A DNA stretch of 26,987 bases. Origin: Lachnospiraceae bacterium. GTDB lineage: Bacteria > Bacillota_A > Clostridia > Lachnospirales > Lachnospiraceae. The translations under genes and the position numbers were made by a program. Position 1 is the first letter of the stretch. Every line of letters starts with the position of its first letter. Positions 1 through 26,765 of the stretch are shown here, piece by piece. The notes under the pieces were generated by a model. That model did no database searches and was not told the origin of the DNA. It saw only the letters and a list, made by a program, of their open reading frames with translations. The stretch is taken from positions 1-26,987 of the forward strand of contig JAILPG010000347.1 of assembly GCA_024699595.1 (NCBI GenBank), in the 5' to 3' direction.

Positions 1-1218
1 CTCCTTGATCCAGTACAGGGCGTTTGCTATGAGATAATTCTTGACCTGGGGTCTCGCATAATTGTATATAAGCGTCCCCCAGTGAGGATGATATCCCTGT
101 CTGGGATCGAGATGTTCATAGAGGCAGGTTCCGTCAAAGGAGGAAAGCCCCTGGATATCTCTCGGGAAATGCGCGGGAACCCAGTCAAGGATCACTCCGA
201 TGCCGTGAGCATGCATGTAATTCATGAAATACTTGAAATCATCGCAGGTACCGTATCTGCTTGTCGGTGCATAATAACCGATCGTCTGGTAGCCCCATGA
301 TCCGTCAAAGGGATGCTCCATAACGGGCATGAGCTCTATATGGGTATAGCCCATGTCGGTCACATACTCCGCTATCATCTCGCAGAGCTCTCTGTAATTA
401 TAGAATTCCCTGCCATCCTCAGGCTTTTTAAAGGACCCAAGATGCAGTTCATATACCGATATGGGTCTGTCCTTTGCCTGAAATTCTTTTCTGTTTTTAA
501 GCCACAGCTCATCATCAAATTCAAAGGTGCTCTCTCTTACGACAGATGCAGTCTGCGGACGAAGCTCTGCTCCGAAGCCGTACGGATCTGCCTTTAAGGA
601 AATATTGTCACCCTTAAGCTTAAGCTCGTACTTATAGATGGCACCGTCTAAGACTCCCGGGATAAACAGCTCAAAAATGCCGGCTTCCTCTATCTTTCTC
701 ATCTGATGGACTCTGCCGTCCCAGCCGTTAAAGTCTCCGACAACGCTTACCCTTACGGCATTTGGTGCCCATACGGCAAAGTTGGTGCCCTTTACACCTC
801 CGTATTCCATGACATGGGCTCCGAGGATCTTATATATCTCATAATGGATACCTGCATTGAACCGCTCTATATCATCCTTTGTGATGATGGAATCATAAAA
901 ATACGGGTCCCTTACTATACTCTCGCGGCCCTTTTTATCGATGACCCTGAAGTAATAGCTGTACTTACATCTCTTGAGTGTCTTTATAAACACCGCATAG
1001 AAGCCCTCCTCGTCGGCAAGCTCCATCGGATATTCTTCCGTTCCCCTGTTCATGGTAACGACTGCAAAGACTTTTTTTACATCGGGAATAAAGGTCTGTA
1101 TGAGTATGCCGCCGTTTACATAGTGGCCGCCCAGTATGTCATGAGGTCTCTCTTCTTCCGAATAGACAACAGCCTCGATCTCGGGCCAGTCCATCATCTT
1201 GTACAGTTTTTTATTCAT
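1..1218 (-). CDS. glgB: 1,4-alpha-glucan (glycogen) branching enzyme, N-terminal part
   Basis: This enzyme makes alpha-1,6 branches in glycogen in the cytoplasm. The window holds the first 406 codons; the gene runs off the left edge, so the C-terminal barrel with the catalytic nucleophile is not visible. Seen from the start: an N1 domain with the HDILG motif, a second CBM48-type domain with NFAVWAPNA and VVGDFNGWDG, then the start of the GH13 barrel with GYYAPTSRYG, region I as ILDWVPAHFP, FDGTCLYEH and HWGTLIYNYARP. These match the GlgB family closely. The ATG at 1218 follows an AGGTAG/AAGG ribosome site that overlaps the stop of the upstream DUF1015 gene (6-nt gap), so the two are almost certainly co-transcribed. 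A two-domain N-terminus is normal for this family, and I see no defect in the part present. Confidence 0.95.
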   Translation of the reverse strand, partial: MNKKLYKMMDWPEIEAVVYSEEERPHDILGGHYVNGGILIQTFIPDVKKVFAVVTMNRGTEEYPMELADEEGFYAVFIKTLKRCKYSYYFRVIDKKGRESIVRDPYFYDSIITKDDIERFNAGIHYEIYKILGAHVMEYGGVKGTNFAVWAPNAVRVSVVGDFNGWDGRVHQMRKIEEAGIFELFIPGVLDGAIYKYELKLKGDNISLKADPYGFGAELRPQTASVVRESTFEFDDELWLKNRKEFQAKDRPISVYELHLGSFKKPEDGREFYNYRELCEMIAEYVTDMGYTHIELMPVMEHPFDGSWGYQTIGYYAPTSRYGTCDDFKYFMNYMHAHGIGVILDWVPAHFPRDIQGLSSFDGTCLYEHLDPRQGYHPHWGTLIYNYARPQVKNYLIANALYWIKE

Positions 1219-2856: not shown

Positions 2857-2888
2857 AAAAAAAGACCGGATGCTTTATGCATCCAGTC
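2857..2888 (-). terminator. Intrinsic terminator of the export cassette, with the stop codon in its loop
   Basis: On the minus strand a 10-bp stem (2888-2879 with 2873-2864, one G-T pair) closes a 5-nt loop and is followed by seven T residues (2863-2857). The TAA stop of the last ABC gene (2877-2875) lies in the loop, so the gene end and the terminator overlap. A second small perfect hairpin (2843-2857, six base pairs) follows; it lacks a T run on the plus strand, so no clear terminator serves the convergent gene. Confidence 0.85.
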
Positions 2889-5058
2889 TCTGTCTTTCTA
2901 CAAGGGAGGCAAAGAAACCGCCCTGTTCTATCAGTTCGTCATAAGTCCCGTCTTCTATTATCTTTCCGCCCTCAAGCACTATTATCCTGTCACAGTCCTT
3001 AATGGTGCTCAGTCTGTGGGCTATCACTATCCTGGTACATTTAAGAGAAGCCAGTGAATCCGCCACTTTTTTCTGAGTGATGTTGTCAAGAGCGCTCGTA
3101 GCCTCATCAAACATGAGGATCTTGGGCTTTGGTGCCACTGCCCTTGCAATCATCAGCCTCTGTTTCTGTCCTCCGGATATTCCTCCGCCGCCTTCAGAAA
3201 CAAGAGTAAACATTCCCATCGGCATGTTTCTTATATCCTCAGCCATGCCTGCCATCTCGGCCGCTTCCCATGCATCATCCAGGGTAAGTTCGGGCGCAGA
3301 TATCACGATATTCTCAAATATGTCTCCCTGGAAGAGCTTTCCGTTCTGCGTTACAGATCCGATAGCCTTTCTTAATGATTTAAGATCCAGACTGTTTATA
3401 TCTTTGCCGTCATAATAGATCGCACCTCTCTGCGGTTTTTCAAAGCCAAGTAAAAGCCTCATGAGCGTTGATTTTCCGCAGCCCGTCTTTCCCACTATCG
3501 CAAGATACTGTCCGGGACGGATCTTAAGCGACAGATTGTCTATTACCATTGGCATATTCTCGTTGTATCTGAACGAAACATTGTTGAGTTCTATTCCGCC
3601 GGCAAGCCTTGTGACCACCTGTTTTCCCTCTGATATCTCAGGTTCCTCGTCAAGGATTGGCTTTACCTGGTCAAGAACAGGCTTGATCTGTGCTATCTGA
3701 AGAGTGATCCCCGAAAGTGCGGCAAAGGCTCCCGATACCATTCCGTATGCGGTTTTAAATGAATAGTAATCAGCAACTCCTACACCGTTATTAACAGCAA
3801 TAAAATCGATCAGCACGCCTCCCAAAAGAGTGATGGCACTTGAGATCACGGGACTTAACTTTACTAAAAGAGGCGGATCATAACTCAGCTTTGCCTCTTT
3901 TGCATAGAGATTACCCCATCTGGCAAAGGCTCTTTTTTCCGCACCTGCAAGCCTTAGCTTCTGTATGCCCGAGATCATCGCAAAGCTCATTCCGTTTTCC
4001 TTGGCTGCAAGCTCCATCATATCTCTTCTGATAGTCATCTGCATTAAGACGGAGAGCATCGAAAAGACAACCGTGAGCAGGATGATGATAATCGACGGAA
4101 CTACAAGGGACGGTGCATATTTAAATATCTGAGTCACATAGACCAGTGAGAAAAGCCCTGTGAGTGCCGTTGAGAACACGGTTGAAAGAAACATCGAGCA
4201 GAGGTTGTTCAGATAACTGACCTTGGTCGCAAGCTCACCCGAACCGTAATCCTTAAAGAAATCCGCAGGCAGGGATAAGATCCTCATCATGGTCGCAGAT
4301 TCGACGCAGACTTCCATCTTAGTATTTAACCTGGACATCACGATGCTCTTTGTCGTGTTAAACATGAGCACGGAAATACTTACACTGATCAGAAAGACCG
4401 CGATCCCGACAAGAGCGTTTATATTGCCCGATCCTATAATGGATGAAAAAATGATATTGTTGATCTTCGGAGTGATCATTCCGATGAGCGTTGCTATCGC
4501 GGTAACCGCAACAACGATCATCACATCGTTTCTCGAGATCGTCCAAAGGATATATCTTATAAGATCCTTTATATCTATCTTTCTTAACGGGAAAGGCTTG
4601 TAGAATACCAAAGCTTCCTTCTCAAACTCATCGCAGTTTGATCCGGTCACCCGGGTCTTAACGCCCGTCTTTGCATCTATGTACACATAGCCGTTGATAC
4701 CCGAAGGGATCAGTGCTATCGGAGTGCCGTCGCTTTTCTTTACGGACAGCATCGCACCGACCGCATCCTTATACCAGCCCTCGGAAAGCTTGACCTCACG
4801 ATACATTATCCCGTTGGGACGAAGCAGATATTCCAGCTGGTCATCGATCTTTTTTATGTTGTCGGGAACTTCCTTGGGTTTCACTCCATAATACTTAAGG
4901 ACCTCATCTATGGCATTTTTCGCTATCAGCCTCTCATCCTGCAGTGCCTTGGAGATCTTTGAGCCCATAATGGCCCCGGCGATATTTATAAAAGAGTCCT
5001 CGAACAGCTCGTTATCTGTTTTCTTTCTTTCTTTTATCTGTTCATCAAACCAGCCCAC
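2875..5058 (-). CDS. NHLM-type peptide export ABC transporter, permease/ATPase without peptidase
   Basis: A 727-residue membrane ABC exporter subunit of the NHLM bacteriocin-system type. The start GWFDEQIKERK, the roughly 165-residue soluble N-terminal domain, six predicted membrane segments (about 175-205, 213-240, 290-312, 317-340, 400-422 and 433-455) and the C-terminal ATPase fit that family. The ATPase is intact: Walker A GKTGCGKST (523-531), signature SGGQ (628-631), Walker B ILMFDE (647-652) and H-loop His681. Unlike its neighbour it has no C39 peptidase. It starts with GTG at 5058 behind an AGAGG site, 23 nt after the C39-ABC gene, so the two are translated from one message and probably form a heterodimer. 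Known family members export ribosomally made peptides with nitrile-hydratase-like or Nif11-like leaders. The cargo here is not visible. Confidence 0.9.
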   Translation of the reverse strand: MGWFDEQIKERKKTDNELFEDSFINIAGAIMGSKISKALQDERLIAKNAIDEVLKYYGVKPKEVPDNIKKIDDQLEYLLRPNGIMYREVKLSEGWYKDAVGAMLSVKKSDGTPIALIPSGINGYVYIDAKTGVKTRVTGSNCDEFEKEALVFYKPFPLRKIDIKDLIRYILWTISRNDVMIVVAVTAIATLIGMITPKINNIIFSSIIGSGNINALVGIAVFLISVSISVLMFNTTKSIVMSRLNTKMEVCVESATMMRILSLPADFFKDYGSGELATKVSYLNNLCSMFLSTVFSTALTGLFSLVYVTQIFKYAPSLVVPSIIIILLTVVFSMLSVLMQMTIRRDMMELAAKENGMSFAMISGIQKLRLAGAEKRAFARWGNLYAKEAKLSYDPPLLVKLSPVISSAITLLGGVLIDFIAVNNGVGVADYYSFKTAYGMVSGAFAALSGITLQIAQIKPVLDQVKPILDEEPEISEGKQVVTRLAGGIELNNVSFRYNENMPMVIDNLSLKIRPGQYLAIVGKTGCGKSTLMRLLLGFEKPQRGAIYYDGKDINSLDLKSLRKAIGSVTQNGKLFQGDIFENIVISAPELTLDDAWEAAEMAGMAEDIRNMPMGMFTLVSEGGGGISGGQKQRLMIARAVAPKPKILMFDEATSALDNITQKKVADSLASLKCTRIVIAHRLSTIKDCDRIIVLEGGKIIEDGTYDELIEQGGFFASLVERQRLDA

Positions 5059-5081
5059 GTTTGCATTCCTCTCACAATAGA

Positions 5082-7265
5082 TCAGTCATTTGAAACAAGT
5101 GAAGTATAATAACCGCCCATTTTATACAGCTCATCATGGGTTCCGCGCTCAACGACCTCACCCTTGTCAAGAACTATTATCTCATCGCAGTCACGGATCG
5201 TACTCAGTCTGTGTGCGACCACGATACAGGTGATGCCGCGGTCACAGATAGCTTTTACGACCTCGTATTCAGTCTTTGCATCAAGCGCCGAAGTGGCTTC
5301 ATCAAGGATTATTATCGTAGGATCCTGGGCAAGTACCCTTGCGATCTCGATACGCTGTCTCTGTCCTCCCGAGAAGTCTTTTCCGCCTTCAGTGATCTTA
5401 TACTGATAGCCTCCGTCACGAAGGATGATATCCTCATGTATCCTTGCATCTCTTGCGGCAAGTATCATTTCAAAGTCTTCGATGGAGTTGTCCCACATCT
5501 TGATATTATTGGCTATCGTATCCTCGAACAGGATGATATCCTGATCCACCACGGCAAGAGATCCTGTAAATACGCTTCTGTCTATCTCCTTAAGCGGCTT
5601 TCCGTCAAAGAGTATCTCACCGTTCCAGGGTTCATACAGACCCGATATCAGCTTGGAAAGAGTGGATTTTCCGCAGCCCGATGAACCGACAAAAGCAACC
5701 TTTCCGCCTTTTTTTAGGGAGAGATTGAAATCCTTTATAAGCGGAGCTGCAAGCTTTGAATAGCCGAAGGTCAGGTTCTTTATCTCAAGATTGCCCGAAA
5801 GCTTACCGTACTCGGCGTTATCATCGACGATAAACGGCTCTTCCTTTACAAATTCGGGATATTCCATTACATCCTCGATCCTCTCCATCTGGGTACGCAT
5901 TTCCTGAATGGTCTGGCCCGCAGAGATAAGAGAGGTCGCAGGCATGGTAAACAGATTTAAGAATCCCTGGAATGCCGTGATCATGCCGACGGTAAACTGC
6001 CCCTTCATGGCAAGATACACGCCGAGCGAAAAGACGATATTTCCCGTAAGCGTGGATACGATCGAAGGGATAAGGCCCAGTTCGTTGTTGAGCTTATCGA
6101 ATTTTACCTTCTGTGTATTGACACTGGCCTGATATCCCGACCACTTCCTGAAGAAACCGTTTTCAGCACCGCTGCTCTTTATGGTCTCTATCATTTCAAT
6201 ACCGGAAACAGTGGCTCCTGCAAGCTTTCCTGCATCCCTCATCTGCACTCTTGTTATATTTACCCTCTTTTCGGAGATGATCCTTGACATGACCAGATTG
6301 ATCGCGATCGACAATACCCCGACTAGCGTGAGCATAACGCTGTATCTGATCATTACGACCAGATAAAAGATCATCATGACCGTATTTATGAAAAGCGGGG
6401 CGACAGTCTGAACCAAAGTCTCTGCGACAGAAGCATTCGAAGACTGGCGCTGCTGTATATCACCGGCCATTCTCTGTGAGAAGAAATCAATGGGAAGTCT
6501 CAGCACCTTCCACATGTAGCTTGTATTTCCGACAGCGGCAAATTTACCGCTTATGCGCAGCGAATATACGGTCTGGATCCATGATACCAGGATCTCAACC
6601 AGTACAAAGAGCGTAAAGGATGTAAAAAACGGCAGGATAAAACCACTTGCTTTCTCTGTAAGGAGTCTGTCTATGAATATCCTGTCCATGGCAGGCGTGA
6701 TAAGCTGCATGAGATTTACGATGACCATGGTAAGTGCAACAAACGCGACTGCCGGTGCCGCACCCTTCATCCTCTTTTTTGCAAACTCGATAACACTCTT
6801 TTGCCTGCCTCCGGGCTCAAAGTTCTCTCCCGGCTCAAACATGAGGCATATTCCGGTAAATGCCTTGTCGAATTCCTCTTTTGTGACCGAAACGTTTCCT
6901 CTGGCCGGGTCGTTTAAATACACCTTGTCGCCCTTTACTCCGCATACGACAACAAAATGATTAAACTCCCAATGCACTATGCACGGGAATTCACCTTCCT
7001 CATAGAGTGTCTCCGGTTCGATACGGTATCCGGCCGCAACAAGACCGTAATTTCTGGCTGCAAGCAGAACATTTTTTGCATTCGAACCGTCTCTTGAAAC
7101 TCCGCAGTCGGATCTGACCTGTTCAAGAGGTATCCATTTACCATAATATGCAAGCACCATGGTAAGACATGCAGCTCCGCACTCAAGCGCTTCCATCTGC
7201 ATTACGACGGGAACCTTGGCTTTGCCGCCCTTTACCGGCTTTTTAACAGCTGCTTCTTTAGACAT
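5082..7265 (-). CDS. NHLM-type peptidase-containing ABC exporter (C39 peptidase, permease, ATPase)
   Basis: A 727-residue exporter that should cut the leader from a peptide and pump the product across the cytoplasmic membrane. A C39 peptidase occupies residues 20-145, with catalytic Cys29 in MEALECGAAC, His103 in FNHFVVV and Asp119 in LNDPARG. Membrane segments lie roughly at 170-192, 208-235, 285-306, 310-330 and 397-445. The ATPase is intact, with Walker A GSSGCGKST (527-535), FSGGQRQR signature (631-638) and IIILDE (651-656). It starts at an ATG behind AAGGAAG, 10 nt after the short HlyD-like gene. All catalytic residues are present, so there is no sign of decay in this gene, in contrast to its upstream neighbour. 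C39 peptidases normally cut after Gly-Gly or Gly-Ala in a double-glycine leader; no such precursor is evident in the window. Confidence 0.93.
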   Translation of the reverse strand: MSKEAAVKKPVKGGKAKVPVVMQMEALECGAACLTMVLAYYGKWIPLEQVRSDCGVSRDGSNAKNVLLAARNYGLVAAGYRIEPETLYEEGEFPCIVHWEFNHFVVVCGVKGDKVYLNDPARGNVSVTKEEFDKAFTGICLMFEPGENFEPGGRQKSVIEFAKKRMKGAAPAVAFVALTMVIVNLMQLITPAMDRIFIDRLLTEKASGFILPFFTSFTLFVLVEILVSWIQTVYSLRISGKFAAVGNTSYMWKVLRLPIDFFSQRMAGDIQQRQSSNASVAETLVQTVAPLFINTVMMIFYLVVMIRYSVMLTLVGVLSIAINLVMSRIISEKRVNITRVQMRDAGKLAGATVSGIEMIETIKSSGAENGFFRKWSGYQASVNTQKVKFDKLNNELGLIPSIVSTLTGNIVFSLGVYLAMKGQFTVGMITAFQGFLNLFTMPATSLISAGQTIQEMRTQMERIEDVMEYPEFVKEEPFIVDDNAEYGKLSGNLEIKNLTFGYSKLAAPLIKDFNLSLKKGGKVAFVGSSGCGKSTLSKLISGLYEPWNGEILFDGKPLKEIDRSVFTGSLAVVDQDIILFEDTIANNIKMWDNSIEDFEMILAARDARIHEDIILRDGGYQYKITEGGKDFSGGQRQRIEIARVLAQDPTIIILDEATSALDAKTEYEVVKAICDRGITCIVVAHRLSTIRDCDEIIVLDKGEVVERGTHDELYKMGGYYTSLVSND

Positions 7266-17160: not shown

Positions 17161-18165
17161 TCATCTGATCCTTTCAGGATATCCCACTTTCTTTTTAACC
17201 TTTCTGAGCGTTTTCTCAGCAGTGTGTGCTGCTCTCTCAGCATTGTTCTTTATAACGGAATCAAGATAATCCTTGTTCTTCTCAAGATCGCTCATCCTCT
17301 CCTGCAGGGGCTTTAATACGGCTACTACCGCTTCGCCGACGGCTGTCTTGAAATCACCGTATCCCTTGCCAGCAAACTGCTCTTCAACGCTCTGAGGGGT
17401 GCATCCTGTGCAGGCTGCATAGATATCTATAAGATTCTTTATGCCCGGCTGTTCATCGCTGTATCTTACGGCTGCTTCCGAATCCGTAACGGCTCTTTTG
17501 AACTTACGCATCACCGTATCGGGATCGTCCGTTAAGTAGACGCTTGCGTTAGGATTTTCATCGGACTTTGACATCTTTTTTTGCGGATCCTGAAGGCTCA
17601 TGATCTTGGCTCCTACCTTTCCTATATAGGGCTCGGGCACGGTAAAGACGTCACCGTATATGCTGTTAAATCTCTGTGCCAGATCTCTTGTAAGCTCGAG
17701 ATGCTGCATCTGGTCGATTCCAACAGGAACCACATCCGCCTGATATAACAGGATATCTGCGGCCATCAGCACGGGATAGGTAAACAGCCCCGCATTGATA
17801 TTGTCAGCATGCTTTGCAGACTTGTCCTTAAACTGCGTCATCCTGTTAAGCTCACCCATGTAGGTAAAGCAGTTTAATATCCAGGCAAGCTCGGCATGAG
17901 CCGAAACATGTGACTGGTAATACAGTATGCTTTTCTCCGGGTCGATCCCGGCGGCAATATAAAGGGTCAGAAGACGCCTTGCTCTTTTTCTGAGCTCTGC
18001 GGGATCCTGTCTTACGGTTATCGAATGCATGTCAACCACCGAATAATAGCACTCGTATTCGTCCGAAAGACTCACCCAGTTCTTAAGCGCGCCCAGGTAA
18101 TTGCCTATCGTAAGATTCCCTGTAGCCTGCATTCCGGAAAAAAGGACCTTCTTTCCATCTATCAT
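17161..18165 (-). CDS. trpS: Tryptophan-tRNA ligase
   Basis: Charges tRNA-Trp with tryptophan. The 334-residue length is normal for the bacterial enzyme. Class I signatures are clear: the HIGH equivalent TIGN (19-22) in GMQATGNLTIGNYLGALKNW, and KMSKS in QKKMSKSDENP. Other family motifs are YPVLMAADILLYQADVVPVG and DQMQHLELTRD. The gene begins only 4 nt after the GH13-like gene, using a GGAGG site inside that gene's end, so its translation is coupled to that gene. I saw no T-box leader in front of it; expression is likely from the promoter upstream of the sirtuin-like gene. Confidence 0.97.
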   Translation of the reverse strand: MIDGKKVLFSGMQATGNLTIGNYLGALKNWVSLSDEYECYYSVVDMHSITVRQDPAELRKRARRLLTLYIAAGIDPEKSILYYQSHVSAHAELAWILNCFTYMGELNRMTQFKDKSAKHADNINAGLFTYPVLMAADILLYQADVVPVGIDQMQHLELTRDLAQRFNSIYGDVFTVPEPYIGKVGAKIMSLQDPQKKMSKSDENPNASVYLTDDPDTVMRKFKRAVTDSEAAVRYSDEQPGIKNLIDIYAACTGCTPQSVEEQFAGKGYGDFKTAVGEAVVAVLKPLQERMSDLEKNKDYLDSVIKNNAERAAHTAEKTLRKVKKKVGYPERIR

Positions 18166-18169
18166 TTTG

Positions 18170-20044
18170 TCATTCCTCCGTGATCTTTTTCTTCTGTTTT
18201 TTTATGCTATCCTTATCCTTTTCGGAGATAAGCAGCAGTATTGCTCTCTCCTTAACGACTATCGAGTCCTTGACCTCTGACAGTTTATCCGTATATGCCT
18301 CAATGTTTCCGTCGCTTGATACAAGCGCCCTCCACTTAAGTCCTTCCGGGAGCTTGGGCAGAGCATATGAATGCTCTTCCCAGTGCATATTGTATGCTAT
18401 ATAGAAAAAGTCATCATCCTTTCCGTCCTCTCTCTTTGCATACATTCCGCAGTACATCATCCCGATGTTCCTTATATGATTATAGAACTTAGGATACCAT
18501 GCTGCCTCCGCATGATATGAAAGATCCGGATATCCGCAGGAAAGCGTGTCGATGAGCTTCGGCTCATGGCACATATGCAGTATCGGATGAGCGGTTCTTA
18601 GCCTGATAACACTCTTTACAAAGCTCTCAAAAAGCTCCGTCTCCCTGCTCTTCTTCCATTTGATCCAGCTGATGGCATTATCCTGACAGTAAGGATTATT
18701 ATTGCCGTTTCTGGTATTCATGAATTCATCGCCGCTTAGGATGACAGGTATCCCTCTTGAGAACATAAGCATCATCACGGCATTTTTCATCTGTTTAAGC
18801 CTAAGCGTCCTTACGGCCTTCTTCCTTGACATGCCCTCCTGGCCGCAGTTCCAGCTGTAATTATAATCCGTTCCGTCCAGGTTATTCTCGTTATTGTCGT
18901 CATTATGCTTGTAATCATAAGAGACAAGGTCATTTAAGGTAAAGCCTTCATAGGTTGTGATATAGTTGAGCTGTCTTATATCAGCAGGATTGCTTCTGTT
19001 TAACTCAGTAAATCTCTGGAGCATATCCTCATCGCTCTTTAAGTAGCGTCTGTAAACATTCATGCAGTCGCTGTCTGCCTTTGCAAGGAAGCTGTGCTTA
19101 AAGCCGTCCCTGCCGCCAAAGAGCCTCTCTGTATCAAAGCTCTTATAATAGATCTTTGTGTGTGAAAGCATTGCTTCCTTACAGATCATGTCTATCGGGA
19201 TATTCTCTCCCATCATGAAAAATCCGTCGATATGGTATTCCGATACCCAGTGTTTCAGACAGGGGATTATGATATTCCTGTTTACCTCATCGGGGAAATA
19301 GAATCTCATCACGACCTCTATACCTTCTCTGTGAAGGGCAAGGACCATGTTCTTAAATTCATTTACAAAATCATCCGAATATGAATACTCGGGCTTGGGC
19401 ATAAAATAGCAGGCACTCTTAAAGCCCCAGTAATTTATCTTCTCACGTACATCTTCCCTGTGATAAGGCTTGTCCGATGTATCTTCCGTCTCATCAAAAT
19501 CATAGGCAGGCATAAGTATCACCTGATTAACGGACATATCTTTTAAATGGCTGATCTTCTCGGTAAGGCCGAGATACGTGCCTTTATACTTTACCTTTGA
19601 CGAAGGATCCTTTGTAAAGCCCCTGACATGCAGGTCATAGGCTATGACCTCGCAGAGATCGGTCTCTAAAAGCTTATCGCCCTTCCAGTCAAAGGTATCA
19701 TTATAGACCATGTAAGGGTTGATCTTTCCATCCTTCCTGCTCTCTCCCCATTTTCTGTTTCTTTTGGCATTCTTTGCATAAATATCGGTTGAGAGCTTTC
19801 CGTCTGCCTCAAAGGTATAGCTTATCTCTTCGGGAACAAGGCCTGATACCTTAACGGAATAGACGTTTCCGAAGGTTCTGTAGGGCAGCATGTCTATTTT
19901 TTCGATAAGCCTGTCGTTTTTATCATAAAGGCACAAAAAAAGTGTCCTCGAACATGAAGAAGTGAAGCAGAAGTTGATTCCGGCTTCACTCAGGCTTGCT
20001 CCATATTCGGTGCTGACACCTTTTTCTATCCTGATATGACTCAT
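18170..20044 (-). CDS. GlgX/isoamylase-type GH13 protein with all catalytic residues replaced (probable pseudoenzyme)
   Basis: A 624-residue protein with a CBM48-like N-terminal domain (about 10-110), a GH13 barrel like glycogen debranching enzyme GlgX (about 130-470) and a C-terminal beta domain. Family landmarks remain: YDLHVRGFTKD (136-146), YKGTYLGL (153-160), NYWGFKSACYF (204-214), GFTLNDLVSYDYKHN (367-381), GIPVILSGDEFMNTRNGNNN (431-450). The four catalytic regions are broken. Region I DVVYNH-type is now RFYFPD (247-252). Region II GFRFD is GFFMM (274-278), so the nucleophile Asp is Met278. The acid/base Glu is Lys301 in YKSFD. Region IV HD is YE (365-366). Hydrolysis by the GH13 mechanism therefore seems impossible. 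A glycogen-binding or regulatory role is my inference. The frame is full length, without stops. It starts 19 nt after the sirtuin-like gene with a weak ribosome site. Confidence 0.88.
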   Translation of the reverse strand: MSHIRIEKGVSTEYGASLSEAGINFCFTSSCSRTLFLCLYDKNDRLIEKIDMLPYRTFGNVYSVKVSGLVPEEISYTFEADGKLSTDIYAKNAKRNRKWGESRKDGKINPYMVYNDTFDWKGDKLLETDLCEVIAYDLHVRGFTKDPSSKVKYKGTYLGLTEKISHLKDMSVNQVILMPAYDFDETEDTSDKPYHREDVREKINYWGFKSACYFMPKPEYSYSDDFVNEFKNMVLALHREGIEVVMRFYFPDEVNRNIIIPCLKHWVSEYHIDGFFMMGENIPIDMICKEAMLSHTKIYYKSFDTERLFGGRDGFKHSFLAKADSDCMNVYRRYLKSDEDMLQRFTELNRSNPADIRQLNYITTYEGFTLNDLVSYDYKHNDDNNENNLDGTDYNYSWNCGQEGMSRKKAVRTLRLKQMKNAVMMLMFSRGIPVILSGDEFMNTRNGNNNPYCQDNAISWIKWKKSRETELFESFVKSVIRLRTAHPILHMCHEPKLIDTLSCGYPDLSYHAEAAWYPKFYNHIRNIGMMYCGMYAKREDGKDDDFFYIAYNMHWEEHSYALPKLPEGLKWRALVSSDGNIEAYTDKLSEVKDSIVVKERAILLLISEKDKDSIKKQKKKITEE

Positions 20045-20063: not shown

Positions 20064-20816
20064 CTAATATACTACCATGGGCAGGATATCCTCCACCTTT
20101 CCGTGTATGCACATATCGGCTGCACTGTCACTGTGATGCTCATGCAGCGTTATCAGTACTACCCTGTTGCCCTCATAGTACTGTAACAGGCTGTTTACCA
20201 TCGGCGCAGCCATATTGGTCCCAAGTATCAGGATTATGTTTGCATTGACTACGGCATTTGATGCTGCAGTAAGGACATCATTTCTTATCATCTCGCCATG
20301 CAGCTGTACTCTGGGTCTTACGGGAGCCTGACATGCATCGCACAGCGGTATTCCCTTTTTGCTCCTCATGTATTCAAGATCATAGAGCCTGTGGCACTTG
20401 GGACACTGGTTCACATGACGGTTGCCGTGCAGTCTTATGACATTATATATTCCGGCATCCTCGGGAAGCCCCAGTACATCATGCGTGATTACCGCCGACA
20501 GCTTGCCGAGGTCCTGCAGATGCTTTATCGCATGATATCCAAGTCCCGGCTTTATATCAAGATCCATGATCTCTTTTCTGTAGAACTCATAGAATTTCTG
20601 TTTTTTTGTAGCATAAAAAGAACCGGAATAGATCTCCTCGGGTGACATGCCGTACTCTTCTTCAATACGGTACGATTCGTCATTGCTCCAGAGGTTCTTT
20701 CCGCCGCATTCGATCTCCATCCCGACGCCGCAAAAACAGACGATCTGTCCGTTATCACGTATCAGATTTCTTAAATGACTGATTTTTTCTTCCGTGGCTG
20801 TTGATGAGATGATCAT
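20064..20816 (-). CDS. Sirtuin (SIR2)-like protein with altered NAD-site motifs
   Basis: A 250-residue SIR2-family protein. Supporting features: catalytic-type His130 in IRLHGNRHVNQC, a zinc site of Cys138, Cys141, Cys159 and Cys162, RPRVQLHGE (167-175, normally RPxVVxFGE), and GTNMAAP (199-205) near the NAD end. Canonical GAGxS is CGVGME (29-34), the GIPDFR stretch is replaced by GGKNLWSND (38-46), and TQNxD is THDVL (111-115), so the usual Asn and Asp are Asp113 and Leu115. True sirtuins deacylate lysines using NAD; whether this one does is uncertain, but it could bind NAD or ADP-ribose, or act on another substrate. I have a memory of similar clostridial proteins, so it may be a real subfamily. 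ATG at 20816 has a GAGG site and a promoter. It heads the run sirtuin, GH13-like, trpS. Confidence 0.82.
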   Translation of the reverse strand: MIISSTATEEKISHLRNLIRDNGQIVCFCGVGMEIECGGKNLWSNDESYRIEEEYGMSPEEIYSGSFYATKKQKFYEFYRKEIMDLDIKPGLGYHAIKHLQDLGKLSAVITHDVLGLPEDAGIYNVIRLHGNRHVNQCPKCHRLYDLEYMRSKKGIPLCDACQAPVRPRVQLHGEMIRNDVLTAASNAVVNANIILILGTNMAAPMVNSLLQYYEGNRVVLITLHEHHSDSAADMCIHGKVEDILPMVVY

Positions 20817-20845
20817 ATGTCTTCCTCATAGCTTTGTCTGATTTT

Positions 20846-20874
20846 ATAATATCAGCATTTTTTCCTTTTTTCAA
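20846..20874 (-). promoter_or_regulatory. Promoter of the sirtuin-GH13-trpS gene run
   Basis: On the minus strand TTGAAA (20874-20869) and TATTAT (20851-20846) are 17 nt apart, in an A-rich context. The start codon of the sirtuin-like gene is 29 nt beyond the -10 box. The first 46-bp repeat begins about 19 bases upstream of the -35 box. Confidence 0.62.
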
Positions 20875-20892
20875 GGATAATGCCACGGTTTT

Positions 20893-21020
20893 GGGCTCCC
20901 GCGACTGGGGTGCAGGGTTGTTTGTGGAAAATATGTCGGGGCTACCGCGACTGAGGTGGATGGCATTGTTAGGAAAACAGGTCGGGGCTACCGCGACTGG
21001 TTCCCGTGCCATTGTAGAAA
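20893..21020. repeat. Three 46-bp tandem repeats with a GGGGCTACCGCGACTG core
   Basis: The core GGGGCTACCGCGACTG occurs at 20938-20953 and again, identical, at 20984-20999; a variant GGGCTCCCGCGACTG lies at 20893-20907. The period is exactly 46 bp. The 30-bp stretches between the cores are also related (each has an ATTGT- or TTTGT-like step followed by GGAAAA or GAAAA), so the whole unit, not just the core, was duplicated. The third unit forms the left arm of a long hairpin. No reading frame explains them. Together with the hairpin and the two promoters they fill the 457-nt space 20817-21273. Confidence 0.8.
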
Positions 21021-21050
21021 AATGGCCCGGAAACCCTCGCGGCTAGCCCC
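20984..21050. other. 67-nt imperfect palindrome (long hairpin)
   Basis: Two 30-nt arms (20984-21013 and 21021-21050) pair over 26 base pairs around a 7-nt loop GTAGAAA. The ends are GGGGCTA and TAGCCCC; paired blocks are 7, 6, 4, 3 and 6 bp with small bulges or mismatches between them. There is no T run after it on either strand, so it is not a normal terminator. Blocks interrupted at matching places suggest either selection on structure or an old mobile repeat of the REP/MITE kind. Confidence 0.78.
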
Positions 21051-21157
21051 TCGGTATCGCTGTTCATAGAAATATCCATCTGAAAATATATAGATTGTTT
21101 TTATGGTAGGATGAATAAAATCCAGATTGTAGTTTCTGCTATCCCAAGGGTGAATGA

Positions 21158-21186
21158 TTGCATGTGTTCTGTCATGGTGATATATT
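21158..21186 (+). promoter_or_regulatory. Candidate promoter of the DUF1292 gene
   Basis: TTGCAT (21158-21163) and TATATT (21181-21186) are spaced by 17 nt on the plus strand. This would give a leader of about 80 nt before the start codon at 21274. A later TTGACA at 21241 lacks a matching -10 box. Confidence 0.5.
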
Positions 21187-21273
21187 GATGATGGGCTTAT
21201 GAATTGCTGTGAAAAACAGCGGATTGAGCTATTAAACTCGTTGACATTCAGCACCTTTAAGAAAGGATTCATT

Positions 21274-21582
21274 ATGGCTTTTAACGAAAATATCGATCCG
21301 GATGAGGAAATGACCGTTGAGCTGACGCTCGAGGACGGTTTGACAGTAAACTGCGGGATCATTACGATCTTCGAATGTGACGGCAGGGATTACATTGCAC
21401 TTTCTCCGCTTGACAACAAAGATTTTGAGGATGAGATCTGGTTCTACAGATATGAAGAGGATCCTGAGGATGAGACCAAAGAACCCTCTCTTGAATATAT
21501 CGAGGATGACAATGAGTATGAGGCTGTCGCCGATGCTTTTGACGAGCTTTTGGATGAGCAGGAATTTGAAGAAGGTGAGTAA
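21274..21582 (+). CDS. DUF1292 family protein
   Basis: A 102-residue, very acidic protein of the DUF1292 family, common in Firmicutes and of unknown role. The core is seen in MTVELTLEDGLTVNCGIITI, then FECDGRDYIALSPLD and EIWFYRYEED, followed by an acidic tail rich in Glu and Asp (EYEAVADAFDELLDEQEFEE). The small beta-rich domain followed by an acidic helix is typical. No membrane segment or signal peptide. I set the start at the ATG at 21274, which has AAAGGA six bases upstream; an upstream ATG at 21199 would add 25 residues that do not look like the family. It is a single-gene unit, divergent from the sirtuin-like gene and convergent with the DUF2264 gene. Confidence 0.88.
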   Translation: MAFNENIDPDEEMTVELTLEDGLTVNCGIITIFECDGRDYIALSPLDNKDFEDEIWFYRYEEDPEDETKEPSLEYIEDDNEYEAVADAFDELLDEQEFEEGE

Positions 21583-21611
21583 GCCGTTTGAGCCGGACAG
21601 CTTTAACGGCT
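21582..21611. terminator. Possible shared terminator hairpin between convergent genes
   Basis: A 7-bp inverted repeat (AGCCGTT at 21582-21588, AACGGCT at 21605-21611) with a 16-nt loop lies between the DUF1292 stop and the DUF2264 stop. Only a short TTTT follows on the plus strand after AAGGC, so it is a weak terminator at best. Confidence 0.35.
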
Positions 21612-21618
21612 AAGGCTT

Positions 21619-23736
21619 TTAAATGGTCATGTTCCTCTCCACGTTCTTACAGTCTATCGTTCTGATACTGCCATCTCTGTGTCTTATGGTCATGCTGTCC
21701 GATCTTTTAAAGACTCCGTTTTTAAGTTCGCACGGATCAGCATTTACCGTGATCGTGTCTATCGGGAATATGTCTTCTTTTGACAGGCTTCTGTCTCCCT
21801 GTGCACTTATAAGCTGTGATATATAGGCTGTGCATTCACCTGCGTCATACTGTCTGTACAGCCCGCCTTTTGCAAGTATCATAAGTGATGACTCCGATAC
21901 GGGATTGGTTCCCCGGTTTCTGACAACCGACATATCCGCAAATCCGGAATATACCGTCATTGCCATCTCTCTTTTTTCTCCGTTTTCACCGCTTCCCTTT
22001 ATGACATATGAAACGGGCTTCAGTCTGTCCATGACGGTTCCGTCTTTTGCAAGGACCGTGATCTCTTCTCCGCTTATCTTCTCCGCCTCTGCATCGCCCA
22101 TATCGGCAAATCCGTAGGAGCCAAGTATTATCTCCATCGGGCGTTTCACGATCCTGAATCTGTCTGCTCTCATTATCCCAAGAGGTACGGCATAGTCGCA
22201 CAGATCCACGGCCTCGAGCCAGTGGCATTCATTTGTAAGATCATATTCAAAGAACTGTCTTCTGTACAATACCTGCTCCGATACCCCGCAGTAAAAAGTT
22301 ACATTTGCTCTCTCATTGTGGTTATCGGTAAGGCTTACAAGCTCGTACTGGCAGGATCTTTCATCGCTTTCCCAGGGGTATTTTGAGTTGTAGCAAAGCT
22401 TTGAGTAGTTAAGCATTCCATGCCCGTCGCCCTTTGATTTGAGCACTTTGGCCGTTCTCAGGATCATGGTGCCGTTTGCTTTGTGATCAGTATATACCAG
22501 GGCGGGCCCTGAAAGGACTGTCTCCTTTACCTCATTATCCGACAGCTTCTCCCATGTCCCGTTATTCTCCTTTTCGCTCCAGAAGGGATGTTCTTTGGGA
22601 AGCTTTAGGCACAAAAAGGACTTGAATATCCAGAATACGGATTCCGCGCAGGAATAGCCCTGTATGAGCGGCTTGAACTCGCCATAAAATCCAAGTGACG
22701 GTACTCCGTTTATCAGAAAATCATCCCTTGATAGGAACTGTAACATCGCACCCGATGCTATCCTCCTTGCAAGTCCGGGATTTATGCGCGAATCATTTAA
22801 AAAGAGGTTTCCGTCAAATGCCGAAGTGACGGCATTTCGGTAGATGCAGCTTCTGCCCCACATGGTCATGTGGCCATCCTCGTCAAACAGATCGGGAAAT
22901 GTCTCCATGAGCCTGTTTGAATTTTCCTCAAACTGCAAAGCTACCCCGGGCATGTTTTCGTATCCGTACCACTTATTCCACAAAGGTGCATAGAAATTAA
23001 AAGCCCAACAGGAATAATAATCAAAGGAATGACCGTCTCGATACCACCCGTCTCCCACATAGTAGCTGAGGCATTCCGATGCATGATCAGCCATCACCGA
23101 CTCGTCGATCTCATAGCCGTTCATATGCAGAAAGGCAAGATCCAGCATATTAAAGAACCGCCAGTTCTGAGGTACTGTATTTGCATGGGCATAGCCCGAC
23201 AGGAAAGCTGCTATCCCATCCTTTTCGGCATCGGAATATGTGTCCCATAAAACGTCCTTGCACATATACAGGCCTATTACCAAAGCTGCGGTCTCCACGG
23301 TCTGCTGAAAGGGTCTGAACGGATCCTCTGAGCCCGTACTCTTTAGCATCTCGTCATAGGAACCCGCGTATTCCCTGCTGCTTTTATCCGTACAGCTGCG
23401 CAGTATATGCAGTTTGTAATAATCCCTCACATTGATCCCGTTAAGAGTAAGGGCGGGATCTTCATCGATCAGTACTGACGCAAGAAAAAGAGACCTCGTC
23501 AGTCCCTCAAACATCTCAGCTCTCATCTCCGCATCGAGCACACCGCCCGATGCACCCTTGTGAGGATAGGTGATCTCCGTCTCCGATCTCTTTACTATGA
23601 CTGGATCATCCATGCTCTTTATATGATCAAATATCCCCGAGAGAAGATATTTTCCTGCTGCCGTAAAGCTCTCTCTCGTAAGCCCCGTATAGGGGCTAAG
23701 TTCATGATCAGTATATTCGGAAGTATATGCACTCAT
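21619..23736 (-). CDS. DUF2264 family protein, probable intracellular carbohydrate-active enzyme
   Basis: A 705-residue protein of the DUF2264 family. The N-terminal half has the look of an alpha/alpha-barrel (helices such as FLASVLIDEDPAL, FFNMLDLAFLHMNGYEID, and aromatic-rich DGWYRDGHSFDYYSCWAFN and FYAPLWNKWYGYEN). The C-terminal half is beta-rich (GHGMLNYSKLCYNSKYPW, WLEAVDLCDYAVPLG). DUF2264 genes usually sit with GH88/GH105-type genes and sugar importers, as here. The exact reaction is not known to me. No signal peptide, so it should act in the cytoplasm. I start it at the ATG at 23736, seven bases after GGAGG; the frame stays open another 60 codons upstream, but that part overlaps the GH88 gene and looks like non-coding translation. 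It is 19 nt from the GH88 stop. Confidence 0.82.
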   Translation of the reverse strand: MSAYTSEYTDHELSPYTGLTRESFTAAGKYLLSGIFDHIKSMDDPVIVKRSETEITYPHKGASGGVLDAEMRAEMFEGLTRSLFLASVLIDEDPALTLNGINVRDYYKLHILRSCTDKSSREYAGSYDEMLKSTGSEDPFRPFQQTVETAALVIGLYMCKDVLWDTYSDAEKDGIAAFLSGYAHANTVPQNWRFFNMLDLAFLHMNGYEIDESVMADHASECLSYYVGDGWYRDGHSFDYYSCWAFNFYAPLWNKWYGYENMPGVALQFEENSNRLMETFPDLFDEDGHMTMWGRSCIYRNAVTSAFDGNLFLNDSRINPGLARRIASGAMLQFLSRDDFLINGVPSLGFYGEFKPLIQGYSCAESVFWIFKSFLCLKLPKEHPFWSEKENNGTWEKLSDNEVKETVLSGPALVYTDHKANGTMILRTAKVLKSKGDGHGMLNYSKLCYNSKYPWESDERSCQYELVSLTDNHNERANVTFYCGVSEQVLYRRQFFEYDLTNECHWLEAVDLCDYAVPLGIMRADRFRIVKRPMEIILGSYGFADMGDAEAEKISGEEITVLAKDGTVMDRLKPVSYVIKGSGENGEKREMAMTVYSGFADMSVVRNRGTNPVSESSLMILAKGGLYRQYDAGECTAYISQLISAQGDRSLSKEDIFPIDTITVNADPCELKNGVFKRSDSMTIRHRDGSIRTIDCKNVERNMTI

Positions 23737-23755
23737 TAAAGATCCTCCAAAAATA

Positions 23756-24961
23756 CTACCAGTAGATGATCCAGTCCGGATCAAGCAGTCTGGTAAGCGC
23801 CTCCATATAATAATAATCACCCCAGAGTACGCATTCGTCCACACCCTCAGGCGTACAGGTATTATACGGGCTCTTCTTTGAATAGGTTCCGTGAAGGAGC
23901 CGCCCGTTGCTTTCATTTATATCCTTTACGGAATAATCATCGATAACGGATTTAATTATACGCTTTGCAACAGATGTATAATACCATCCATCCTCTTCAT
24001 TCATATATTTGCTCATTTCAAGCATCCCACAGGCTGCTATCACTGCCGAGGAGGAGTCCCTCGGCTCCGTATCCTTATCATCCTCTCCGAAGCTTAGATC
24101 CCACATAGGCACAAGATCATACGGAAGATGTCTCAGGAAATACCCGCATACACGCTTAAAATAGCCGATGTATTCTTCTCTTTTCGTATATTTATATGCA
24201 ACCGCACAGCCGTATATTCCCCATGCCTGTCCTCTCGCCCAGGCTGATCCGTCCTTATAGCCCTGACAGGTGGCACCGTGGTGAAAGGCTCCGGTCTGCT
24301 TGTCCATGAATACTGTATGCCAGGTGGAATCATCCTCCCTTATCACGTTGTTCATGGCAGTATGTATATGTTTTTCGGCGATATCCCTGTATTTATCATC
24401 GCCTGTCTCGAGGCTTGCCCAGTAAAGGAGCGGGAGGTTTAACAGACAGTCTATGATAAATCTGTAATTGTCATCAGCGCCCATTTTTCCCCAGGCCTGT
24501 ATGAACTCGCCCACGCTCTGAAATCTCTTTATGAGCATGTCAGCTGCCTTTATCGCAGCTTCCCTTCCGGTCTTATTTCCGGTAAGCTTATATGCGGCAA
24601 CACAGGAAGGGCTGTAGAGAAATCCCATGTCGTGATGATCTACATCGATCTCATTCATCACTCTGTCATAAAAGGATCTTACCTGGGCATTTGCCGCATC
24701 AAGCAGCCTTCCCTTATCGGAGGACTCTTTTGTATTTTCATAGGATAGCCACAACTGGCCCGTATAAAAGCCGGTTGTCCAGCCCTTATTCTCACAGGGT
24801 CTGTAAAAATTATCCACACTTGCCGCATAGGGAAAACAGTCCTTAAAATCATCAAGATACTTAAGGACTCCCGAAATACATACGGACAGGGCCTTTTTTA
24901 CCTCATCCGTCGTAACCTCGGGATGATCCTTTATCATGTCTGTATCGATCCATTTTTCCAT
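23756..24961 (-). CDS. GH88 unsaturated glucuronyl hydrolase
   Basis: Removes 4,5-unsaturated uronic acid from the non-reducing end of oligosaccharides left by polysaccharide lyases. The 401-residue protein has the UGL-type landmarks: GWTTGFYTGQLWLSYE (60-75), the first catalytic-type Asp111 in DHHDMGF, Asp171 in RFIIDCLLNLPLLYWAS, and SAWARGQAWGIYG. Asp111 and Asp171 correspond to the two essential aspartates described for Bacillus UGL. No signal peptide, so it is cytosolic, consistent with import by the adjacent ABC transporter. The start at 24961 has a GAGGTG site and lies 15 nt after the permease gene. Specificity (pectin, rhamnogalacturonan or glycosaminoglycan type) cannot be read from the sequence. 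Confidence 0.92.
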   Translation of the reverse strand: MEKWIDTDMIKDHPEVTTDEVKKALSVCISGVLKYLDDFKDCFPYAASVDNFYRPCENKGWTTGFYTGQLWLSYENTKESSDKGRLLDAANAQVRSFYDRVMNEIDVDHHDMGFLYSPSCVAAYKLTGNKTGREAAIKAADMLIKRFQSVGEFIQAWGKMGADDNYRFIIDCLLNLPLLYWASLETGDDKYRDIAEKHIHTAMNNVIREDDSTWHTVFMDKQTGAFHHGATCQGYKDGSAWARGQAWGIYGCAVAYKYTKREEYIGYFKRVCGYFLRHLPYDLVPMWDLSFGEDDKDTEPRDSSSAVIAACGMLEMSKYMNEEDGWYYTSVAKRIIKSVIDDYSVKDINESNGRLLHGTYSKKSPYNTCTPEGVDECVLWGDYYYMEALTRLLDPDWIIYW

Positions 24962-24976
24962 AATATGTGTTCACCT

Positions 24977-25816
24977 CTACCCTTTCACGGCACCGGTCGT
25001 AATACCAGCCACAAAGTATTTCTGCAGTGACATGAATACGATGAGCACCGGTATCAGGGACAGCACGGATGCCGCCATGATAAGTCCGTACTCGGCCGAA
25101 TACTGTGATATGAACATCTTAATTCCTATCTGCAGGGTTTTCTTTGAATCCGAGGTCAGATAGATAAGGGGGCCTAAGAAATCATTCCAGGTATTTACAA
25201 AGGTAAATATGACAAGAGTTGAAAGCGCCGGCTTTGAAAGCGGCAGCATGATCGATGCATAGATCTTGTACTCACTCATGCCGTCTATCCTTGCCGCTTC
25301 GCAGAGCGAATCGGGTATGCCCTCATAGAACTGTCTCATAAGGAACACTCCGAATGCCGAGAAAGCCTGCAGGATGATGATCGCAAGATGCGTATCCGCA
25401 AGTCCGAGCTTCCTCATAAAGATAAACTGCGGCACCATGTATACCTGCCAGGGAACGGCTATGGTCGCTATGTATGCAAGAAAGAGAAGGTTTCTTCCGC
25501 GGAATTCAAGCTTTGCAAAAGCATAGGCGGCAAAGCTTGAGGTAAGTATCTGTAAAAGAGTTACTATCACGGTAAGCTTTACGGTATTAAGTGCATATTT
25601 TGCAAGAGGGATCTTTGTCCAGATATCCACGTAATTCTGCCATCTTGCTTCGAATCCGACCCATGCATAGGGGATCATGAAAACATCCTTGTTAAGCTTA
25701 AGCGATGCCGTGATCATCCATGCAAACGGCACAAGCATAATGACTGAGAGGAGTATCAGGAAGAAATAGATTATGGTCTTTTTGATTGCCGTATTATTTT
25801 TCGATCTTGATTCCAT
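24977..25816 (-). CDS. Carbohydrate ABC transporter permease (MalG/UgpE type)
   Basis: Inner-membrane permease of a type I sugar importer. The 279-residue protein has six predicted membrane segments, starting with KKTIIYFFLILLSVIMLVPF and ending with LIMAASVLSLIPVLIVFMSL, and the EAA loop EAARIDGMSEYKIYASIMLP that contacts the ATPase. It ends in the usual QKYFVAGITTGAVKG. I take the ATG at 25816, with an AGGGGGTG site, rather than one at 25855 that lies inside the preceding permease gene. It follows that gene by 13 nt. No ATPase gene is in the window; such importers often share a common MsmK/UgpC-type ATPase encoded elsewhere. Confidence 0.93.
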   Translation of the reverse strand: MESRSKNNTAIKKTIIYFFLILLSVIMLVPFAWMITASLKLNKDVFMIPYAWVGFEARWQNYVDIWTKIPLAKYALNTVKLTVIVTLLQILTSSFAAYAFAKLEFRGRNLLFLAYIATIAVPWQVYMVPQFIFMRKLGLADTHLAIIILQAFSAFGVFLMRQFYEGIPDSLCEAARIDGMSEYKIYASIMLPLSKPALSTLVIFTFVNTWNDFLGPLIYLTSDSKKTLQIGIKMFISQYSAEYGLIMAASVLSLIPVLIVFMSLQKYFVAGITTGAVKG

Positions 25817-25829
25817 ACCCTTCACCCCC

Positions 25830-26765
25830 TTAGTCGTTTGCGTAATTCTTCTCACCCTTAAACTGTATCAGGGTGATCACAAGAACTATGACAAACAGTA
25901 CAAGAGCCGCCGCCGAGGCACTTCCGAGCTTCCAGTTTCTGAAGGCTTCCTCGTAGATATAATATACAAGGACCATCGCGCTCTTATTTACCACGCCGTT
26001 GGAACCTCCGGCCAACATATATACGATATCGTATATCTTGAAACAGCTTATGGTTAACATCACGCTTACAAAGAAGGTTGTAGGCTTAAGCTGCGGAAGC
26101 GTCACATACCAGAATCTCTGCCATGCCCCCGCTCCGTCAAGCGCAGCCGCCTCATACAGGTCTTCGCTTATACCCTGTAATCCTGCAAGATATATCACCA
26201 TATAATAGCCCATGTTCTTCCATATCGAGAACAGTATGATCGTAAGCATTACGGTATTGGGTGCTGCCGCCCACTTAAGCGGGGCTGCATGAAATACATT
26301 CATTAGCAGCTGGTTCATGAGTCCCGCCTTGTTGGGCGTAAACAGCATGTTCCATACGGCAGCTACCGCTACCAGAGAGGCTACATATGGAAAAAAGACA
26401 ACGGTTCTGAAAAAGGTCCGGCCTTTAATCTTCTGGTTTAGAAGGATCGCAAGTCCAAGAGCACACACAAGTGTCAGCGGGACAGTAAACAGACTGTATA
26501 CTATGGTGTTTTTTAGAGAAGCCATAAACCTGTCGTTTGTAAAGAGATCCTTAAAATTGGCTATCCCCGTAAACTGCATGGGATTTGACCCGTCCCACTG
26601 TGTAAAAGCCATGATAAAAGCAAGTATTATGGGGCCCAGTGTGAACACGGCAAAGCCCACGAAATTCGGTGCTATAAAGGAATAGGCCACGAGGGTTCTC
26701 TTTTTTTCTCTTTTTGACATGCCCTTCTTTGCCGGCATGACTGCTGCTGTCTGATTAGCGCTCAT
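25830..26765 (-). CDS. Carbohydrate ABC transporter permease (MalF/UgpA type)
   Basis: Partner permease of the same sugar importer. The 311-residue protein has a basic N-terminus (AKKGMSKREKKR), then membrane segments beginning LVAYSFIAPNFVGFAVFTLG, as in UgpA-type permeases, and the EAA loop EAAALDGAGAWQRFWYVTLP. It forms a heterodimer with the next gene's product. Between it and the upstream binding-protein gene lie 108 nt that hold a 14-bp stem-loop. Start at 26765 with a GGAGA-like site. The substrate is inferred to be an uronic-acid oligosaccharide from the downstream GH88 gene. Confidence 0.93.
   Translation of the reverse strand: MSANQTAAVMPAKKGMSKREKKRTLVAYSFIAPNFVGFAVFTLGPIILAFIMAFTQWDGSNPMQFTGIANFKDLFTNDRFMASLKNTIVYSLFTVPLTLVCALGLAILLNQKIKGRTFFRTVVFFPYVASLVAVAAVWNMLFTPNKAGLMNQLLMNVFHAAPLKWAAAPNTVMLTIILFSIWKNMGYYMVIYLAGLQGISEDLYEAAALDGAGAWQRFWYVTLPQLKPTTFFVSVMLTISCFKIYDIVYMLAGGSNGVVNKSAMVLVYYIYEEAFRNWKLGSASAAALVLFVIVLVITLIQFKGEKNYAND

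Follow-up and report, generated by a model that had tools for sequence, protein, structure and literature searches.

A GlgX-like protein family of Lachnospiraceae lacking the catalytic triad and two cleft loops, and its possible role as a glucan-binding accessory of glycogen metabolism

The stretch of Lachnospiraceae DNA analysed here (the window, 26,987 nt) carries, as the preliminary description had stated, an uninterrupted frame of 624 codons for a GlgX-like protein, P0001; it runs on the minus strand. The features of this gene, which we call the dead-GlgX gene for reasons given below, and of its surroundings are listed in Table 1. It lies closely between trpS and a SIR2-family deacylase gene. 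In the nearest sister locus, L001, the dead-GlgX gene and trpS overlap by 4 nt, and this overlap, with the 4-nt gap in the window, suggests that the two genes may be co-expressed. The neighbours at L001 are the same as in the window, while locus L015 has trpS, lactonase, tgt, yajC, leuB and ilvD in common with it. Across 21 loci, a UvrD-type helicase gene was found upstream in 11 and a DUF5662 gene downstream in 11, with both in 10 (the identities come from one scanned protein of each), and a gene that we take from its first residues to be gltX was present in nine.

Table 1. Features of the dead-GlgX gene and its surroundings in the window
Feature	Position	Strand	Basis or remark
Dead GlgX-like protein P0001, coding sequence	18170..20044	minus	624 aa, 624-codon open frame
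R247, region I Asp place (E. coli GlgX D261)	19304..19306	minus	alignment
E253/V254 junction, ~44 residues of the true-GlgX beta3-alpha3 loop gone	19283..19288	minus	alignment
M278, catalytic nucleophile place (E. coli D336); ~14 residues of the next loop gone	19211..19213	minus	alignment
K301, acid/base Glu place (E. coli E371)	19142..19144	minus	alignment
Residues 360-404, beta7 loop of border lobe (N381, W398 = maize ISA1 N561, W578)	18833..18967	minus	mapping, conservation
Y365-E366, region IV His-Asp place (E. coli H442-D443)	18947..18952	minus	alignment
Residues 431-456, beta8 loop GDEF...GNNNPYCQDN (N448 = maize N628)	18677..18754	minus	mapping, conservation
trpS	17161..18165	minus	starts 4 nt after the dead-GlgX stop codon
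SIR2-family deacylase gene	20064..20816	minus	19 nt upstream of the dead-GlgX gene
glgB 5' part, truncated at window edge	1..1218	minus	46% identity to E. coli GlgB, 395 aligned positions

The preliminary description had also pointed to a glgB gene in the window. One is present, but as a 5' part only, the window edge cutting the gene, and it lies on the same strand as the dead-GlgX gene at a distance of ~17 kb. Linkage of the two is weak, about what chance would give by rough impression: among 62 carriers of the dead form, glgB was on the same contig in 10 and within 50 kb in five. An attempt to read a function from the neighbouring genes gave nothing, as the context holds no glycogen operon and no neighbour indicating glycogen. 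No Rfam matches were found in the window at gathering thresholds. Elsewhere in the window, ~800 nt (20817–21618) are without a recognised gene; they hold a 124-aa frame for which neither Pfam nor NCBIfam gave a match. Two adjoining ABC transporter genes lie at 2875–7265 (minus strand), one with an N-terminal peptidase C39 domain of the kind found in peptide (bacteriocin-type) exporters. At 21619–26765 (minus strand), genes for a DUF2264 protein, a protein of the GH88 family and two ABC permeases for sugars form a set that perhaps serves in the use of uronates or oligosaccharides. As listed, the DUF2264 frame shares 161 nt with the GH88 gene, which makes a start further in probable.

P0001 matches the NCBIfam model for GlgX, TIGR02100 (E 3.3e-87), at 293.2 bits and does not reach the equivalog cut-off of that model, 640.9 bits. 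An NCBIfam model specific to the dead-GlgX family was not found: all 53 of the 53 members scanned (set A3) match TIGR02100 together with other GlgX/pullulanase models. The best PDB sequence relatives are plant isoamylase 1 (ISA1), Streptomyces venezuelae GlgX, TreX and E. coli GlgX, with ISA2 lower down; identity to E. coli GlgX is 26% over 577 aligned positions. An AF2 model of P0001 (pLDDT 90.4) gave Foldseek and VIA matches to ISA1, GlgX and TreX, with residues 5–610 of 624 aligning to ISA1. The CBM48-like domain, the (beta/alpha)8 barrel and the C-terminal beta-sandwich of the GH13_11 fold are all present. Since no signal sequence was seen in P0001 by eye, the protein is probably cytoplasmic.

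To collect relatives, we searched proteins with P0001, keeping the best 120 of 5608 matches, and with a distant member, keeping the best 120 of 7997. Together with the loci, this yielded 303 distinct proteins, of which the 301 with at least 480 aa were aligned. Twenty-nine are true GlgX, all reading D-R-D-E-H-D at the six catalytic positions. Among the other 272, P0001 included, the full triad is found in none, so the change is common to a family and not peculiar to one genome. None of the three triad residues is kept in 229 of these proteins, one is kept in 24, and two in 19.

Alignment with E. coli GlgX gave R247, M278, K301 and Y365-E366 at the four catalytic regions, the same replacements that the preliminary description had named. 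Position by position, D261 becomes R247, R334 becomes F276, D336 becomes M278, E371 becomes K301, H442 becomes Y365 and D443 becomes E366, and the Asp/Glu/Asp triad of regions II, III and IV is absent from P0001 (M278, K301, E366). Relative to GlgX, TreX and isoamylase (CAZy GH13_11), the dead form is without the triad and without two cleft loops, and P0001 scores 293 against 640.9 bits for TIGR02100. As read from the alignments, the loop deletions are an addition to the preliminary description, which named residue changes alone. The span from the region I Asp to the nucleophile (247–278) is 31–32 residues in 272 of 272 family proteins and 76 in 29 of 29 true GlgX; the span from nucleophile to acid/base (278–301) is 22–24 residues in the family and 38 in true GlgX. 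The N-domain of the family is also shorter than that of GlgX, by a median of 13 residues. An 11-protein MAFFT alignment placed the gap just before M278, which we assign to the nucleophile place because members read DGFR-I/V-N there and the 301-row alignment agrees. An active site moved elsewhere in the barrel was considered and is not credible with both cleft loops missing; the alignment check turned up no credible catalytic set, and the claim of loss stands. On this basis, we regard the loss of GH13 hydrolysis in the dead-GlgX protein as almost certain.

All six former catalytic positions vary within the dead-GlgX family. Position 247 is E in 126 proteins, R in 85 and Q in 47, with the original D retained in 14 of 272; D is found at position 278 in three, E at 301 in 34, and D at 366 in 25. 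A tree that included 66 of the 272 proteins was rooted on E. coli GlgX and two pullulanases. In it the 66 form one clade (support 1.0), which joins the Lachnospiraceae true GlgX in a larger clade (support 0.987). A tree of the 301 proteins, made with the six positions removed, splits the family into two large branches plus seven proteins that group by themselves. One branch, of 123 proteins, has mostly E247, N/S278, S/T301 and N366, while in the branch of 142 that includes P0001 the commonest states are R/Q247, M278 and Y365. This pattern suggests that the triad was lost at the family root and that the dead centre drifted afterwards.

Thirty further loci from 23 genomes, 16 of them among the 80 genomes described below, comprised 17 dead-type and 13 true GlgX, although several were already in the aligned set. 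In each of the 17 dead-type loci the first span is 31–32 residues, and in none is the triad present. Five dead-type loci of the genome tally (L087–L091) were inspected apart from these thirty. Internal stops were flagged in several matches of the genome scan; in the four inspected, L053, L054, L056 and L058, the match merely reaches or just passes the gene's own stop. Among the matches listed, the relatives bear Lachnospiraceae names, including the genera Velocimicrobium, Suipraeoptans and Eisenbergiella, and Lachnospira and Lachnoclostridium, which we take to be Lachnospiraceae genera as well. The exceptions are 'uncultured Eubacteriales bacterium' (L008) and 'Clostridium sp. CAG:411'.

The dN/dS of the P0001 gene against its nearest sister, L001, is 0.149, far from 1. 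Six other family pairs gave 0.080–0.135 and six flanking genes 0.029–0.103; all values are from our own Nei-Gojobori script and are approximate, with dS above 1 and near saturation in several pairs. At the protein level P0001 and its sister are 70% identical. Of the eight flanking proteins, the DUF2264 protein is 75% identical between the two loci and the other seven are 86–95% identical. The dead-GlgX gene is thus evolving more quickly than most of its neighbours and is still clearly constrained.

Where does this constraint fall? Between P0001 and L001, 40 of 45 residues are identical in the beta7 loop (360–404) and 25 of 26 in the beta8 loop (431–456), against 75 of 121 in residues 239–359. 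The mean conservation of the former catalytic blocks (239–310) is 0.40–0.59 in the 272 proteins vs. 0.82–0.88 in the 29 true GlgX, while the beta7 and beta8 loops have 0.78 and 0.82 vs. 0.86 and 0.89, with the caveat that the 29 are fewer and closer kin, which makes the comparison a loose one. When stretches of 15 residues are ranked by conservation, 24 of the top 25 fall within 366–463, and the remaining one starts at 159. The preliminary description's view that a non-hydrolytic GlgX-fold protein has been kept by selection is therefore well supported, by the absence of the triad from all 272 proteins, the loss of the loops, the dN/dS and the conservation of these two loops.

The same region is known from plants. 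In maize, the sugary1 missense sites R504, N561, W578 and N628 are in the 'border lobe' of isoamylase 1, and W578 touches bound glucan at a secondary site, SBS2 (PMC12510319). They correspond to R332, N381, W398 and N448 of P0001, mapped through an alignment with rice ISA1 on the assumption that maize 504–628 is gap-free, which gave a single fitting offset among those tried. The second site is N561 in a table of the source and once N562 in its text (PMC12510319); N561 fits the mapping. These four residues are kept in 271, 272, 272 and 272 of the 272 family proteins. True GlgX keeps them too (29, 28, 29 and 29 of 29), so they may have been retained for folding or by inheritance, and glucan contact is reported for one of the four. 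However, E. coli GlgX has Asn at the place of W398, so a Trp there is not demanded by the fold. Part of the border-lobe loop has pLDDT below 50 in both models (389–397 in P0001, most of 410–434 in the model from the second branch), which leaves the shape of that segment unfixed, and its invariant columns carry no covariation signal.

For the distribution of the family, 250 genomes were drawn from Lachnospiraceae, the family of the Eisenbergiella genome G002, and 202 of them gave a match to the family model at 1e-30, a count that takes in true GlgX. The two forms were separated in 80 genomes, with a tally read by eye from profile-match rows and cross-checked against the wider genome scan. The dead form is present in 63 (counting G085, where it is a 384-residue fragment), true GlgX in 25 (counting two fragments, G053 and G059), and both in 22. 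At the thresholds used, 41 of the 63 carriers have no GlgX, nor was it seen in six of the 12 genomes behind the named loci. Class-wide, 11 of 291 genomes match at 1e-90, eight with dead-type proteins and three with true GlgX; four of the eight, the centre genome included, were already in the family sample. GlgA (76 of 80) and GlgB (75 of 80) are near-universal in the sample, so co-occurrence with them says little. GlgA is found in 61 of 63 carriers and 15 of 17 non-carriers (p 0.20); this and all other co-occurrence figures given here are uncorrected for kinship and genome completeness.

We propose, with a probability of about 0.5, that the dead-GlgX protein is an accessory of glycogen metabolism that binds alpha-glucan without hydrolysing it. 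The triad and two cleft loops would have been lost in an ancestor in or near Lachnospiraceae, the loss being read from alignment and the date being our estimate. Purifying selection has kept the protein while the dead centre drifted, towards substitutions of N/S type in one branch and of R/M/Y type in that of P0001. The strongest constraint lies, by the mapping above, on the border lobe with the Trp known from plant isoamylase 1 to contact glucan, and through this lobe the protein may bind the alpha-glucan chains of glycogen. As a passive accessory it might organise or protect these chains, or place GlgB or phosphorylase on them, a role that would be of the same kind as the one plant ISA1/ISA2 complexes play apart from catalysis. 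The preliminary description had offered a glycogen-binding scaffold, sensor or regulator. That reading is plausible, the border lobe being the best-kept part; a role limited to aiding a debranching enzyme is unlikely, because 41 of the 63 carriers show no GlgX. A more specific version, towards which we are tentative and lean to doubt, is that of a stand-alone, enzyme-free organiser that would keep the border-lobe site, need no debranching partner and set the architecture or turnover of glycogen. If true, bacteria would have evolved, separately, a counterpart to the role beyond catalysis that was recently ascribed to plant ISA1/ISA2 complexes.

A different possibility is that glucan binding is beside the point and that the protein regulates a partner, with the invariant lobe forming an interface to GlgB or phosphorylase. 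The proposed interface would also take in seven newly constrained positions, N204, E339, D499, R525, Y535, M553 and H554, which are at least 95% conserved in the dead family and less than 60% conserved, or not scorable, in the 29 true GlgX. An invariant loop to which monomer models from two branches give low confidence would also suit an interface. All 63 carriers have GlgB, as do 12 of the 17 non-carriers (Fisher p 2.6e-4, uncorrected for kinship and genome completeness), but this co-occurrence is only suggestive, as just five of the 80 genomes are without GlgB and two of these are small (1.2 and 1.9 Mb). That glgB is seldom nearby (within 50 kb in 5 of 62) speaks against such a partnership, and the best-kept part of the protein holds a Trp whose plant counterpart touches glucan. 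We consider this explanation unlikely.

The closest known kind to the dead-GlgX family is plant ISA2, a GH13_11 protein with a substituted nucleophile and other catalytic residues substituted, which is under selection and has an elevated rate of change (PMC12510319). Both are non-catalytic GH13_11 proteins in which the nucleophile is replaced, and ISA2 is among the PDB matches of P0001. The dead form might then be an obligate subunit of the same type, forming a hetero-oligomer with the true GlgX of the cell and stabilising or directing it, and indeed 22 of the 25 genomes with true GlgX have the dead form. However, the association between the two is not significant (p 0.24 in the 80 genomes), and most carriers are without a visible GlgX partner, as are half of the 12 genomes of named loci. 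In contrast to plant ISA2, dead-GlgX also has no additional N-terminal beta-sandwich, for which the alignment of residues 5–610 of 624 to ISA1 leaves no room. A further difference is that the border-lobe Trp is kept in dead-GlgX, whereas the SBS2 sequence is not found in ISA2 according to PMC12510319. An obligate GlgX subunit is therefore rather improbable.

A rebuilt pocket (R247, F276, M278, Y365) could instead catalyse a different reaction on glucans. P0001's branch does have preferred residues of its own at these places (R in 84, F in 76, M in 83 and Y in 103 of 120), and in 26 of the 63 carriers GlgX, type I pullulanase and GH133 are all absent at the thresholds used, leaving a debranching step unaccounted for. 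But the same is true of 12 of the 17 non-carriers. Most of these carriers and non-carriers have GlgA and GlgB, so that their debranching step is unassigned. In the 80 genomes the dead form is not significantly associated with type I pullulanase (p 0.33), with GH133 (p 0.10) or with any of the three debranchers (p 0.054). The former catalytic blocks, moreover, are less conserved than in true GlgX, and all six positions vary, which makes a new enzyme a very improbable reading. Finally, a decaying pseudogene or annotation artefact, to which the lower identity to L001 than that of the flanking proteins might point, has a negligible chance given the low dN/dS in all seven pairs, the near-identity of the border-lobe blocks in the sister, and the complete or nearly complete frames of 272 family members (although open frames alone were collected).

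The accessory reading can be set beside other known proteins. In some bacteria GlgD is a subunit of GlgC, which is the catalytic one (PMC10395257). It shows that an enzyme of bacterial glycogen metabolism can have an accessory partner. GlgD differs from dead-GlgX in that it belongs with another enzyme, one acting in glycogen synthesis. The GlgX of S. venezuelae is under c-di-GMP control, showing that a GlgX can carry regulation (PMC9530166); it has the same fold as dead-GlgX but is catalytic. No description of a catalytically dead bacterial GlgX family was found in the titles and abstract openings of the papers listed by our searches. Why selection retains a non-catalytic isoamylase is not understood (PMC12510319). 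With a large bacterial family in an ISA2-like state, often with no GlgX seen, this question becomes approachable by removal of a single gene.

The family also bears on how glycogen genes are counted. A survey of such genes in gut bacteria relied on annotation profiling and on BLASTP, the latter with cut-offs of at least 20% identity and half the length (PMC10395257). At 26% identity over 577 positions to E. coli GlgX, P0001 could be counted as GlgX by a survey of this type. With 63 dead and 25 true forms among 80 genomes, predictions of glycogen breakdown in these bacteria may be too high. With its permissive cut-offs, the survey reported two glgX homologues in Blautia obeum (PMC10395257), one of which may be the dead form.
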